DNA from: Nitrospira sp.
GTDB taxonomy: Bacteria; Nitrospirota; Nitrospiria; Nitrospirales; Nitrospiraceae
Assembly (NCBI GenBank): GCA_029194675.1
Contig: JARFXP010000003.1
Location: 434,001 to 498,000, forward strand
Direction: 5' to 3'
DNA length: 64,000 nucleotides
Position numbers and translations under genes: made by a program. Below are positions 8,830 through 57,580 of this stretch, piece by piece (positions within the stretch are counted from its first letter, which is position 1; each line of letters opens with the position of its first letter). Under the pieces are notes generated by a model, which worked only from the letters and a program-made list of their open reading frames with translations, did no database searches and was not told where the DNA came from.

Positions 8830-10062
8830 TCATGTTCGAATGAAACGAAGCCGCTTTTGGATGAGATGTTTCTGCTCTGTCAATGTTGCCTTGTCGGTTG
8901 GAAGATCAAAGAACGAAGTAATATTTCCGAGATTGGCAAACTTATGACCATGGAAAACATGGAATTCTAGCAAGGCTTCAACGTAACGCTTTAGCTGGTA
9001 TAGGAGTTTCGTGATCTCTTCATTCCGTTGGTCCATATGAACGGCAGAGTTTCTGTAATCACGTAGGTGGTGCAACACTTCTTGATGAAAGTCGCGATCT
9101 GACCAAACTGAGACGGCCCGAGTAACGGTCACTTTATGGGAGTCTTTAATTGTTGTTCTGGTCAGGTACTCCAATAAGCTCCAAAGCTTGAGGAATGCAG
9201 TTTCATGGTTTCTTTCGTCGAGGGCAACGGCATACCGCCTAAAGGCTTCCTCCATAAATGTTCTCGAATGAGATTTTGACAGTCGCTTTCTGACCTGCCT
9301 CTCGAAGCTTCTGAGCGAGTCCCAGTTTCTTCGGAGATCCATCGGTGATACCGGCTCAACGTAAGTCGGATCATACCAGAACGGGTCTGGAAGGCGTTTC
9401 CCATTCGGATAATGGAGCGAGTGTAAGGGGCCTAACAATATCTTATTGATAGGATCTCTTTTCTTTGCGTGGAGTACGACGTGGCGCTTTCTGTTAAGGG
9501 CAAAGTTCCAGATCCCTCTCAGAAGGTCAATGGTATCAAGTGCTACAATTCCAGCCTCTTCTGGGGACCGGCCCCGCGTCATTATCTGAATGTATGAGTA
9601 TGCTGTTGGTAATTCGCGATTAAGGAACTCACGGCCCAGTTTGAGAAAAACATCTCTTTGAATCTTAGAGCTGAGGTGGCAAGAGAAAATTATGCGGGTA
9701 TCATTTAAGCCCACACTCTCGCGAGCTGTAGGTATGTGGAGGGAGATATCACTGACCAGTAAATACTCCTTGATAGGCTCTCGCATGTACGCTTGCTCTA
9801 GTTTCGAGATTTCTTGCAGGAGTGCTGACTTCGTAAGTGTTTTGGACTTAGCTACGATGGCGATCCCCTTGTGAACAAACTGCCTCTTGTAGAGATCGGG
9901 AAAAGGAAAAACGAACTTGAGGGATGAAAGTAGAACGGTCACGTAGTCGTTAAACTCAAATCCAGTGAATGACACCTCCCCATTTTCGGATGTTGACTTA
10001 ATCTTCTCTAAGCCCGTAGTGATTACATCTGGGTTATAACCACTTTTCCAATCTGCACACAT
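8830..10062 (-). CDS. Hypothetical protein with C-terminal HEPN-like (Apea-type) domain
   Basis: 410 residues, function unknown. The C-terminal 130 residues look like an Apea/HEPN helical domain: a long helix containing LWSLLEYLTR, then LRDYRNSAVHMDQR, which contains the R-x4-H pattern of HEPN ribonucleases, followed by LLYQLKRYVEALLEFHVFHG. The N-terminal 280 residues are not recognised. Base composition is clearly more AT-rich than the flanking genes and codon choice differs, suggesting recent acquisition. It faces away from the oxidoreductase gene and converges on the orphan antitoxin. A defence or RNase role is possible but unproven. Confidence 0.6.
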   Translation of the reverse strand: MCADWKSGYNPDVITTGLEKIKSTSENGEVSFTGFEFNDYVTVLLSSLKFVFPFPDLYKRQFVHKGIAIVAKSKTLTKSALLQEISKLEQAYMREPIKEYLLVSDISLHIPTARESVGLNDTRIIFSCHLSSKIQRDVFLKLGREFLNRELPTAYSYIQIMTRGRSPEEAGIVALDTIDLLRGIWNFALNRKRHVVLHAKKRDPINKILLGPLHSLHYPNGKRLPDPFWYDPTYVEPVSPMDLRRNWDSLRSFERQVRKRLSKSHSRTFMEEAFRRYAVALDERNHETAFLKLWSLLEYLTRTTIKDSHKVTVTRAVSVWSDRDFHQEVLHHLRDYRNSAVHMDQRNEEITKLLYQLKRYVEALLEFHVFHGHKFANLGNITSFFDLPTDKATLTEQKHLIQKRLRFIRT

Positions 10063-51992: not shown

Positions 51993-52241
51993 ATGTGTCT
52001 CGCGCTTCCAGGACAAGTTCTAAACATCGAAGATGATACGCTTCGCACGGCCACCGTGTCGTTCGGCGGGGTCACCAAATCCGTCTCATTAGCGTTGGTG
52101 CCGGAAGCTACAGTTGGTGACTATGTGATTGTGCATGTCGGCTTTGCCATCAGCAAACTGGATGAGGAAGCAGCGCGACGAACGCTGCAGACCTACGCCG
52201 ATCTGGCAGATTCTAATCCAGATCGAGGGTTTAGGCCATGA
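51993..52241 (+). CDS. hypC: Hydrogenase assembly chaperone HypC
   Basis: 82 residues. The N-terminal MCLALPGQV carries the Cys2 that binds the Fe(CN)2CO unit together with HypD and hands it to the large subunit. The body (TVSFGGVTKSVSLALVPEA, GDYVIVHVGFAISKLDEEA) is the OB-like fold. Its stop overlaps the ATG of a truncated DUF2283 fragment. In a typical operon hypD would follow; here hypD is 4.2 kb away. Confidence 0.94.
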   Translation: MCLALPGQVLNIEDDTLRTATVSFGGVTKSVSLALVPEATVGDYVIVHVGFAISKLDEEAARRTLQTYADLADSNPDRGFRP

Positions 52242-54616: not shown

Positions 54617-54910
54617 ATGGCTATGCACAATCCTCCTCATCCCGGCGAGTTCATTATCCAGGTCTATCTGGAGCCCAACAATCTGAGCGGCCGCGAACTG
54701 GCCGGAAAGCTCGGTGTGGCTGCTTCAACGCTGAATCGCATTCTTACGGGTACGAGCCGTATCAGCCCTGAAATGGCGCTACGCCTCTCCAAGGCTCTTG
54801 GCCGTTCTCCGGAAAGTTGGCTTGCCATGCAGTACAATCACGATCTCTGGCACGCCAAGCGGCATGTGAAGCTCGGCAAGGTCGGGAAAGTCCGGCTCAC
54901 GGCGGCGTAG
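54617..54910 (+). CDS. higA: HigA/VapI-type antitoxin, XRE-family HTH protein
   Basis: 97 residues. Begins HNPPHPGEFIIQVYLEPNNL, then SGRELAGKLGVAASTLNRIL and ISPEMALRLSKALGRSPESW: the HigA family helix-turn-helix. HigA represses its own operon and neutralises the HigB mRNA interferase. No higB precedes it here; the preceding sequence is the HicB remnant, so this is an orphan antitoxin or a repurposed regulator. Confidence 0.88.
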   Translation: MAMHNPPHPGEFIIQVYLEPNNLSGRELAGKLGVAASTLNRILTGTSRISPEMALRLSKALGRSPESWLAMQYNHDLWHAKRHVKLGKVGKVRLTAA

Positions 54911-54963
54911 AAGAACTTTGCAGCCGAGTCGGCAAGCAACTGAAAGGATCCGGGGTTTCAACC

Positions 54964-55182
54964 ATGAAGCTCAACTATAATCCGGACACTGATTCGCTTT
55001 ATATCGATCTTTCTGAAAGACCGAGCGTAGAAAGTCGCGAAGTGTCCGAGGGCGTCGTGCTCGATTACGATTCGAGTGGACGGCTGGTCGGTATAGATAT
55101 CGACAATGCCACCAACAAGGTCGAACTACAAAAACTGATCCTCAGTAAACTTCCCGGCAAGATCGAAACCGACGCAGCCTAA
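54964..55182 (+). CDS. DUF2283 family protein
   Basis: 72 residues from the ATG at 54964. MKLNYNPDTDSLYIDLSERP and VVLDYDSSGRLVGIDIDNAT match the DUF2283 family, often found next to toxin-antitoxin genes (commonly with BrnT- or DUF4258-type partners) but of unproven function. It lies 53 bases after higA. Its first 44 bases are repeated at 52238, and another DUF2283 gene begins at 63863. Confidence 0.85.
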   Translation: MKLNYNPDTDSLYIDLSERPSVESREVSEGVVLDYDSSGRLVGIDIDNATNKVELQKLILSKLPGKIETDAA

Positions 55183-55238
55183 TGCCCCGCGTCCGTATAA
55201 GAACCCACGATAAATAGCCCCACGTCGTACCTCATTGA

Positions 55239-55259
55239 AACGCCAACAATTATGGCGTT
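55239..55259. repeat. Perfect 7-bp hairpin
   Basis: AACGCCA and TGGCGTT flank a seven-base loop. No T-run follows, so it is not a standard terminator. It lies within the 170-base gap between the DUF2283 gene and the cassette-like genes and could be part of an attC-like site or a weak terminator. Confidence 0.4.
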
Positions 55260-55354
55260 ATGCTCGAAACAGTCGGTGGCGTGTTGTAAGGTCGGAACAC
55301 GGCCCATCCGTCTCTTACGCGGATCGGCCTAAACAGTGTTAGCCAGGTAAAGTG

Positions 55355-55567
55355 ATGTCCAGAACTCAACGAGACTTTGCGGCTCGGTCAGCTGAAGAGC
55401 GAGAGTGGATGCTCGATAACACTTGGTGCGATGCATGTGGCGAGGCTGACCTGGGAATGAGCTCGCCCCAGGAGTACGACGAGAATGGTCGCGTTTATCT
55501 GGAAGGGCGCTGTCGGAAGTGCGGGCAAGCAGTTCGGTCGGAGATCACTGAGAAGGGTGCTGGCTAA
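55355..55567 (+). CDS. Small zinc-ribbon-like protein, possible integron cassette gene
   Basis: 70 residues from the ATG at 55355. Two CxxC pairs (TWCDACGEADLG and GRCRKCGQAVRSE) suggest a zinc ribbon. A GTTAGCC sequence lies 11-17 bases before the start and the TAA stop lies inside GGCTAACA, the left core of an attC-like site, exactly as in integron gene cassettes. Function unknown. Confidence 0.7.
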   Translation: MSRTQRDFAARSAEEREWMLDNTWCDACGEADLGMSSPQEYDENGRVYLEGRCRKCGQAVRSEITEKGAG

Positions 55568-55639
55568 CAAGTCGCTTCAGCCGATGTCGGTCTCGTTGCC
55601 TCCCTCTTCGTCTACCGGTGCTGATCTTCAACGTTAGAA
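55563..55639. repeat. attC-like site of an integron gene cassette
   Basis: The site begins GCTAACAAGTCGCTTCAGCC and ends CTTCAACGTTAGAA, so its two ends are imperfect inverted copies of each other (CTAAC...CAGC against GCTG...GTTAG). The order of boxes resembles class 1-type attC elements. The right core GTTAGAA deviates from GTTRRRY at the last base. No integrase gene is present in the window. Confidence 0.65.
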
Positions 55640-55644
55640 CTTTA

Positions 55645-56238
55645 ATGACTATTGATTCATATCTGAAGAAGCAGACAGAGATCGTAAGGTGGATCAACAA
55701 TCACCTCGCTCGCCCCTTCTCTGTGGATCGGAAACGCCAGCTTGCGCTTGCATGCTTCGACCTCGCGATTGAACATCATGCAGGAATATGCTTGCTTTGC
55801 ACATCCAAGCTGTACGGCCCACTGTATGCCCTCTTAAGAGTTGAATTTGAGGCGCTCGGAAGGGGCCTATGGCCATCTCACGTTGCCACGGACGAGGATG
55901 CTAACCGGTACGAGAAGGACGAACTGGATATTGGATTCGGCACCTTACTTAGTCTGGTGGAATCCCAGGTTGGCTTGCCGAACGGTCCGTTGTCCACACT
56001 CAAGTCCAAGCACTGGTCGATCTTCTGCAGCTTCACGCATACCGGATATCAGGCGCTTGTTCGCAGAGTCACGCAGACGCACACAGGTCCCATAAACTAT
56101 CCTGCAGATGAGGTGATCTCCGCTCTCAGCCTGGCGGGGACTTTTGCACTACTTGCGGCAACGCAACTCTCCACCATGGCTGGTGATCAAGACTTGGTCG
56201 ACACTACGCTGGCCAAAGCGAGAGAGTATGCGAGTTGA
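55645..56238 (+). CDS. Hypothetical helical protein, possible second cassette gene
   Basis: 197 residues from the ATG at 55645, six bases after the attC-like site; the frame opens further upstream through that site. Mostly helical with conserved-looking KRQLALACFDLAIEHHAGIC, LRVEFEALGRGLWPSHVATD, SIFCSFTHTGYQALVRR and SLAGTFALLAATQLSTMAGD. It resembles a family of unknown function (DUF6988-like) often carried in accessory DNA; I am not certain of the family name. No attC-like site was recognised after it. Confidence 0.65.
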   Translation: MTIDSYLKKQTEIVRWINNHLARPFSVDRKRQLALACFDLAIEHHAGICLLCTSKLYGPLYALLRVEFEALGRGLWPSHVATDEDANRYEKDELDIGFGTLLSLVESQVGLPNGPLSTLKSKHWSIFCSFTHTGYQALVRRVTQTHTGPINYPADEVISALSLAGTFALLAATQLSTMAGDQDLVDTTLAKAREYAS

Positions 56239-56470
56239 GCGTTCTAAATAGCGGTTTGAGTGGGAGCTCCTACACAGGAGATTTTTGCCCACTGGTGGGT
56301 TCCATCTTCGCTGTGCTCGAAAGCCGCCGGTGGGCTTGGTCGTCCGGCGGACATGTATATTGCAAGGCAAAGTTGAGATTCCCGTGTGGCCCTGAATTAC
56401 CGTTCTGGTACTTCTTGGCTGATTGAGCTCGATTAGATTCTTAATAATGGTGATGTAAGGAATCACGATC

Positions 56471-57580
56471 ATGAAGTACGTGGATGAATTTCGCGATCGC
56501 GCTGTGGCGACTGCGTTGGCGGAGTGGATCAAGAAGACGGTGCGCCGGCCTTGGACGATCATGGAGGTCTGCGGGGGGCAGACCCATGCGATTGTGCGGT
56601 TTGGGCTCGACAGCCTGTTGCCGAAGAACCTTGAGCTCGTTCATGGACCTGGCTGTCCGGTCTGCGTGACTTCAGTGTCGTTGATCGACCAGGCCGTCTG
56701 CATCGCATCATTGCCGGGAGTGATCTTCTGCTCGTTCGGCGACATGTTGCGTGTTCCCGGCTCCCGTGGGGATCTGTTTGGAGTAAAGGCGGCAGGCGGA
56801 GATGTCCGGATCATCTACTCCCCGCTGGATGCGCTCGAACTGGCTTGCAAAAATTCCGATCGCGAGGTTGTCTGTTTTGCCGTAGGCTTCGAGACCACTG
56901 CGCCGGCCTGGGCCATGGTGGTCACGCAGGCGAAGCAGTTGAGCATCACGAACTTCAGTCTGGTGATTGCTCACGTGCTGGTGCCACCGGCGATGGAGGC
57001 AATCCTCTCGTCGCCACAGAATCGGATTCAAGGCTTCCTGGCCGCAGGTCACGTTTGTACCGTGATGGGCTATGAGGAGTATGAATCCATCGCGCAGCGA
57101 TATCGAGTCCCGATCATCGTGACCGGGTTCGAGCCGCTCGATGTTCTCGAAGGGGTGGCCATGTTGGTGAGTCAGTTGGAGGAGGGACGCGTCGGGGTTG
57201 AGAATCAATACGCACGATCGGTCAGCCGGGAAGGGAACCGACAGGCCAAAACGATCGTCGGACAGGTGTTTGAACCGACTCCTCGTGCTTGGCGAGGCAT
57301 CGGCGAGATTCCCGCGAGCGGCCTCCGTCTCAAATCTGCTTACCGTGCTTATGATGCCGAGGTAAAGTTTCAGCGGGAACTTGCACAGCTCACCGAAGGC
57401 ATTGAAGATCCAGAGTGCCGGAGCGGGCTGATTCTTCAAGGACTGCTCAAACCAATGGACTGTCCAGCGTTCGGGACTCGCTGCACACCGGAGCAGCCGT
57501 TAGGCGCGCCAATGGTGTCGAGCGAAGGGGCCTGTGCCGCCTACTATCGATACCGTTCCCGCGCCACAGCTAAAGCCTAG
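56471..57580 (+). CDS. hypD: Hydrogenase formation protein HypD
   Basis: 369 residues. Iron-sulfur scaffold on which the Fe(CN)2CO unit is assembled with HypC. Signatures: [40 protein letters not shown] (redox Cys pair), [17 protein letters not shown], and the C-terminal Cys residues ([28 protein letters not shown]) that bind the [4Fe-4S] cluster. Its start follows AAGGAATC. It is separated from hypC by 4.2 kb of unrelated genes and followed 17 bases later by hypE. Confidence 0.95.

Follow-up and report, generated by a model that had tools for sequence, protein, structure and literature searches.

A probable integron without an integrase, headed by an attI region, between hypC and hypD in Nitrospira

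Several open reading frames (ORFs) separate the hydrogenase maturation genes hypC and hypD in a Nitrospira genome, and those nearest to hypD raise the question of how two small genes divided by an imperfect palindrome came to lie there. The window, the whole stretch of 64,000 nucleotides that was analysed, is positions 434001-498000 of contig C3 in assembly G000, which comprises 5.2 Mb in 16 contigs and is 99.2% complete. An earlier note, made from the letters alone, had seen in the two genes the anatomy of gene cassettes, had assigned them to a cluster of attC sites lacking an integrase (CALIN), and had thought them unexpected in a hydrogenase locus. The answer favoured here, with a probability of about 0.87, is that positions 55190-56248 are an integron without an integrase, in which an attI region bearing a promoter-like site is followed by one cassette with its attC and by a second cassette whose attC is eroded. 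The features are as follows.

55190-55344, plus strand: attI region (the Pc-attI element), 155 bp, directly 3' of a DUF2283 gene, with homology to intI-adjoining regions
55235-55264, plus strand: putative cassette promoter (Pc), TTGAAA-18-TATGCT, a hexamer pair kept in aligned copies
55328-55344, plus strand: attI core, with L box CCTAAAC, 3-nt spacer AGT and R box GTTAGCC
55339-55633, plus strand: gene cassette 1 (TTAGCC ... CAACG), 5' R box and attC R'' complementary at 7/7 positions
55355-55567, plus strand: cassette 1 ORF, 70 aa, ATG at 55355, four cysteines, zinc-ribbon-like
55562-55639, plus strand: cassette 1 attC, with R'' GGCTAAC, L'' GCTTCAGC, L' GCTGATC and R' GTTAGAA, found by covariance model R1
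55645-56238, plus strand: cassette 2 ORF, 197 aa, DUF6988 (PF22491; 83.2 bits, cut-off 27)
56242-56248, plus strand: putative R'' relic TTCTAAA of the cassette 2 attC, a 6/7 match to the reverse complement of GTTAGAA, 3 bases past the stop

The palindrome was evaluated with a covariance model, R1, built from 23 attC-like sites at 13 loci fetched around Nitrospirota intI genes, with the window site excluded; at one training locus, L052, intI is a fragment, and the matching of R'' to R' was relaxed for the harvest after a strict rule had yielded only 14 attCs. A covariance search of the named site had been set beforehand as the check on the cassette anatomy, and the best match in the window fell there: positions 55562-55639 of the plus strand scored 25.3 bits (E 4.3e-4 for 64 kb, both strands, filters off), with the runner-up 12 bits lower at 13.4 bits (E 0.38). 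This site is a real attC. It measures 78 bases when the leading G of GGCTAAC is included, and it gives the 3' end of cassette 1 the R''-L''...L'-R' architecture. The TAA stop of the cassette 1 ORF sits within GGCTAACA (55562-55569), and the attC terminates in CAACGTTAGAA at 55639. A simpler scan for R and L boxes found it as the sole match on both strands of the window. At the other end of the cassette, which has the expected 5' TTRRRY, GTTAGCC (55338-55344) and the R'' GGCTAAC are exact reverse complements of each other, which is how a true cassette is built. The base-level description in the earlier note (the first stop, the site end at 55639, the second ORF at 55645 and the upstream GTTAGCC) is accurate. 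Rfam models had no match in the window, and on the four loci searched with them they matched nothing but a tRNA; a search of G000 with a class-1-like attC pattern was negative.

The sequence that precedes the first cassette is the second component. Over a length of about 155 bp, positions 55190-55344 share 76-77% identity with the sequence immediately 3' of intI at L050, where intI is intact, and at L052; 77% is the value for the attI region behind the intact intI of genome G352. The counterpart at L040, also behind an intact intI, is 71% identical. At L050 an intact intI (452 bits, cut-off 265) is followed by some 30 bp, the element and two attCs, all in one direction. By its position there the element is that integron's attI, with intI reading toward it and cassettes after it. 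Conservation across 44 aligned copies, retrieved with the window element as query so that its ends are favoured, increases at about 55182-55196 and declines from 55341 onward, within the R box. The core has nine occurrences at up to three mismatches in G000, and a reversed-pattern control has none. The crossover would lie between G55338 and T55339. Within the highly conserved block is a TTGAAA-N17/18-TATGCT or TATTCT pair; at this place 36 of the 44 copies have their best promoter-like pair, with a spacer of 17-18, and 33 of these carry TTGAA-. The window pair, the only promoter-like match in 54950-56500, is a putative Pc.

Two other identities for these letters were considered. GTTAGCC might have been the end of another attC, an idea ruled out by the homologues linked to intI and by an L-R spacing of 3 nt, and the 155-bp element might have been a long attC closing a DUF2283 cassette, which was dropped because no conserved 5' R'' is present and the left neighbours vary. 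At L041, in genome G288, an intact intI has no element match directly behind it; a possible relic of the intI 3' end, with an attI, occurs 5 kb further along that array.

The attI R box should complement the R'' of the next attC, because the cassette 5' TTRRRY and R'' share one circle. The nearest downstream attC was taken for 29 of 36 elements, the other seven, with the attC at least 1.3 kb away, being left out. Among the 25 pairs with at least 18/22 core matches, the four variable positions all agree in 12, and the matches total 77 of 100, as compared with a mean of 60.5 for shuffled partners; neither value was reached in any of 20,000 partner shuffles. The window pair agrees at 7/7 positions, as do pairs with rare boxes, GTTATGC/GCATAAC (L040) and GTTAGGG/CCCTAAC (L193). 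Orientation is equally regular. A strand test on 52 R1 matches at E<=0.04, from which weaker matches, duplicate loci and most matches in element-less loci were omitted, placed all 59 element-attC pairs on the same strand. An attC lay within the stretch examined for 42 of 111 element matches; a few loci among the 111 were counted twice, none of them with an attC.

The right-hand boundary of the element is also evident when the window is aligned with other hyp loci. The 28 alignments end at 55338-55345 in 14 cases, at 55321-55336 in seven and at 55270-55291 in seven, and none passes 55344. Genome G332, set apart from the 28, alone continues, and into the same cassettes. At L135, in genome G394, the match over the DUF2283 gene and the element is 85.5% as far as 55344, past which the sequences diverge.

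The cassette 1 protein matched no family over cut-off; it has relatives at 90% identity in Nitrospira sp. UBA2083, the closest named relative met (this protein being the sole query tried there), and at 60% in a Myxococcales metagenome-assembled genome. DUF6988 is present in 9 of 147 family genomes. At L200, in genome G234, a DUF6988 gene is framed by two R1 attCs, with its start a few bases past the first and its stop within the second; there, at least, the family moves as a cassette. Among the hyp loci compared, only G332 shares the window's cassettes (87%), and in it the attC is eroded and DUF6988 broken. Candidates for a second attC after DUF6988 (GTTAGAT, GTCCAGC), sought by visual inspection of the window and of G332, were not convincing.

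The earlier note's claim that no integrase is present held up across the genome, in that none was recognisable. A profile search of G000 with TIGR02249 gave nothing over cut-off among all 27 candidates, each of which was scored, so that the integrase of a complete integron was not found; the two best full-length proteins pass the XerD and XerC cut-offs. The clearest IntI trace is a 41-residue C-terminal piece (C4:340937-341059), which an attI follows after 180 bp.

L063 (G000:C4:332000-346000), 8938-9060, minus strand: IntI C-terminal relic, with an attI core 180 bp on

This relic and its attI are a decayed second integron of the same genome. Possible shorter IntI traces precede two more of its attIs, AGVRSSLNGM* at L069 and the very short DGM* at L062. 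In a phylum sample, IntI scored over cut-off in at least 91 of 395 genomes, with up to five candidates scored per genome, and IntI or a piece of it accompanies the element at 11 of 124 fetched element-holding loci (eight distinct places), most of which extend only 1.5 kb to each side.

The element is, more surprisingly, a dispersed repeat with many copies. It matches at least 64 of 79 genomes of the genus (up to 10 candidates scored per genome), and the L050 element matches at least 98 of 196 genomes of the class, in 13 of 50 genera (up to four scored per genome). Eight genomes for which all candidates were scored hold 2 to 18 element match rows each; the 14 rows of G000 comprise 11 distinct copies, a short piece and two mirror rows of inverted arms. 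A search for further attCs, which the earlier note had recommended, was productive, and among the 150 candidates scored, of 2873 first-look candidates in G000, at least 14 attain E<=1.2e-3 and at least 20 attain E<=1. Four attCs within 3 kb on the minus strand at G000:C2:1126529-1129572 form a CALIN-like cluster.

The place of the element in the hydrogenase locus is itself recurrent. The immediate boundaries of the variable interval in the window are these.

51993-52241, plus strand: hypC, left neighbour (TIGR00074, 89.9 bits, cut-off 48)
56471-57580, plus strand: hypD, right neighbour (TIGR00075, 497.5 bits, cut-off 192.8)

The hypD-proximal order is DUF2283 gene, 155-bp element, 70-aa four-Cys ORF, attC and DUF6988 gene. 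Of the 79 genus genomes, 48 had a HypD match, and 40 hyp regions were fetched; most of the first 20 were picked for an element near hypD, so that the counts are not a prevalence. With the window included, hypC was seen in 36 of 41 regions, and the hypC-hypD interval in these 36 is below 100 bp in four and 0.8-8.5 kb in 30, the 2.5 kb recorded for L156 being too large because hypD itself was fetched there. All 50 elements in 27 hyp regions (a count that drops L137, L139 and L156, with hypC in view in 26, L119 being the other) lie upstream of hypD and share the hyp orientation; shared descent may explain part of this bias. The surprise at finding cassettes here is therefore justified for the window taken alone and not for the genus, since the same element lies between hypC and hypD in many relatives. 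Among the neighbours in the window is a HigA-family antitoxin gene at 54617-54910 (TIGR02607, 101 bits), and HigA-like, DUF2283 and other genes recur in the variable interval across the genus. A terminator-like hairpin with a T run (56267-56280, plus strand) between cassette 2 and hypD is not above the shuffled background.

In several arrays outside hyp, a single conserved distal flank, G^TTAATGCGACAGGGCTGAGG...GGCCG, comes after the last attC. A scan of 198 sequences gave 30 matches to this flank in 22 of them, 27 of the matches being distinct; L047, L192, L193, L196 and L225 are among its loci. Behind 14 of the 27 distinct flanks another element begins within 111 bp, giving the tandem order attI-cassette-attC-flank-attI and so on, and at L089 (1649-1717) the flank directly abuts CCTAAACATAG, an empty platform. 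What had looked like a shared gene upstream of some elements resembles parts of the platform before them, namely its distal flank and its leader. The flank was not found in hyp loci or in the window at E<=1e-3. Tentatively, and at somewhat less than even odds, the Pc-attI of Nitrospirales, with its many flank-bearing copies, might be a multiplied ORF-less platform that provides at least 10 promoter-bearing docking stations per genome, solo or in tandem, served in trans by a single and often lost IntI, with one station fixed between hypC and hypD. If so, the hypC-hypD interval would be a widespread cassette hot spot in the genus, and L089 an empty station.

How, then, would the array have arisen? 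The IntI tyrosine recombinase would have joined cassette circles at G^TTAG of attI, each new cassette being placed directly behind Pc and co-oriented with the hyp genes. Since the genome has no recognisable IntI, the array should now be frozen, and would only be expressed unless IntI comes in trans. The attI unit belongs to a Pc-attI repeat family scattered over Nitrospirales genomes. Intact integrons such as L050 have it immediately behind intI, in a reverse layout, and other copies are solo, in tandem or beside intI relics.

A number of observations weigh against this account. The R/L pattern has a background of 0.45 matches per 64-kb strand in Markov shuffles and by itself is not significant; the E-value of the attC is only 0.035 when R1 is scored genome-wide; the fold of the site as plain DNA is no stronger than that of shuffled sequence on either strand (z +0.44 and +0.72), so that a fold test alone would have missed it; and G332, the sister genome, has an eroded version of this attC. 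Its own R'' and R' agree at only 5/7 positions, as is expected because R' derives from the following cassette. No R1 attC follows cassette 2 at E<=10, where TTCTAAA alone follows the stop. In a single copy the Pc pair is not above shuffles, and the conservation of its hexamers could be simple homology. The junction test has its misses (2/7 at L063 and L095:1461, 4/7 at L092 and L120), and R1 matches at E 0.05-1 include seven opposite-strand rows at five places, of which four mirror a right-strand attC (L041, L212 and L227, L229), two lie over the G332 element and one is in L074. The seven alignments ending at 55270-55291 are partial copies, and seven more stop short at 55321-55336. Finally, an intI could be missing from the assembly. 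Should the palindrome be a chance one among ordinary operon genes with no integron history, the unremarkable fold, the pattern background and the genome-wide E would all be accounted for. This is scarcely credible, being contradicted by several independent lines: the R1 score in the window (E 4e-4), the attI homology, the 7/7 junction and the behaviour of DUF6988 as a cassette elsewhere.

Two other explanations retain the attC. One is a plain CALIN, with stray attC cassettes at a secondary site and no attI of their own, as the earlier note had it. No intI is nearby, a single attC was found, and insertion of cassettes at attG sites is known (PMC12444791). Yet this alternative is improbable in view of the 155-bp homology to the attI region behind intI, the 3-nt L-R spacing unlike that of the attCs harvested for R1, the R box that matches the first attC, and the G394 locus with its shared left flank and different right flank. 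Of the CALIN assignment there survives the presence of cassettes without an integrase; the upstream GTTAGCC ends an attI instead, and only one attC is recognisable. The other explanation, unlikely though appreciably less so, makes the element a repeat with its own mobility, akin to miniature inverted-repeat transposable elements or repetitive extragenic palindromes, that became attI-like after one copy landed behind intI and was co-opted. The 17-bp inverted arms in the alignment, the range of 2 to 18 match rows per genome among eight genomes, the excess of copies over intI genes and the truncated copies fit such a repeat; conservation that stops within G^TTAG, an R box that predicts the R'' of the next attC, and the same-strand placement of all 59 attC pairs do not. 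The element can be both mobile and an attI.

What the integron reading describes is a family of attI sites whose consensus can be tested and predicts the R'' of the cassette that follows. Genomes carry these sites in many copies, and for most of the copies examined the stretch fetched shows no intI. If functional, they would let cassettes be taken up and expressed at numerous points of the chromosome, and integrons in Nitrospira, a key nitrifier group, would be undercounted by surveys that rely on intI or on attC clusters. In the open-licence literature, so far as the portions searched reach, no paper on orphan or dispersed attI was met, dispersed whole attI regions in Nitrospira were not found described, and Nitrospira integrons appeared only as two CALINs, reported in Ca. 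Nitrospira inopinata (PMC9024848).

Comparison with known systems sets the locus in context. attI is usually taken as single and beside intI (PMC9024848, PMC3607928), and outside class 1 it is poorly described and not detected (PMC9024848). CALINs share with the window attC cassettes without an integrase, and differ in that the cassettes here stand behind an attI that has a promoter-like site; the default of IntegronFinder 2 asks for two attCs, as against the one recognisable here, although single-attC CALINs can be real (PMC9024848). The reverse-layout chromosomal integrons of Treponema resemble L050 in that intI reads toward attI, and they too include relics without intI (T. phagedenis), but one attI per integron is assumed there, whereas here there are many per genome, mostly without a nearby intI (PMC3607928). 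The decayed integrons at ilvD in Xanthomonas likewise have a fixed chromosomal place, an often inactivated intI, retained cassettes and extra CALINs at conserved loci; there the surviving intI stays at one ancestral locus, whereas in the present case it is the attI unit itself that is dispersed in repeated copies (PMC12444791). Comparable too are the Delta-attI-type cassettes of class 1 and 2 integrons, in which attI occurs inside arrays as a recombination site and four architectures have been shown to work (PMC12901181). The most frequent of these have short attI1 fragments (14-18 nt types) replacing attC, in contrast to the whole Pc-attI regions seen here, some of which are followed by a conserved distal flank.
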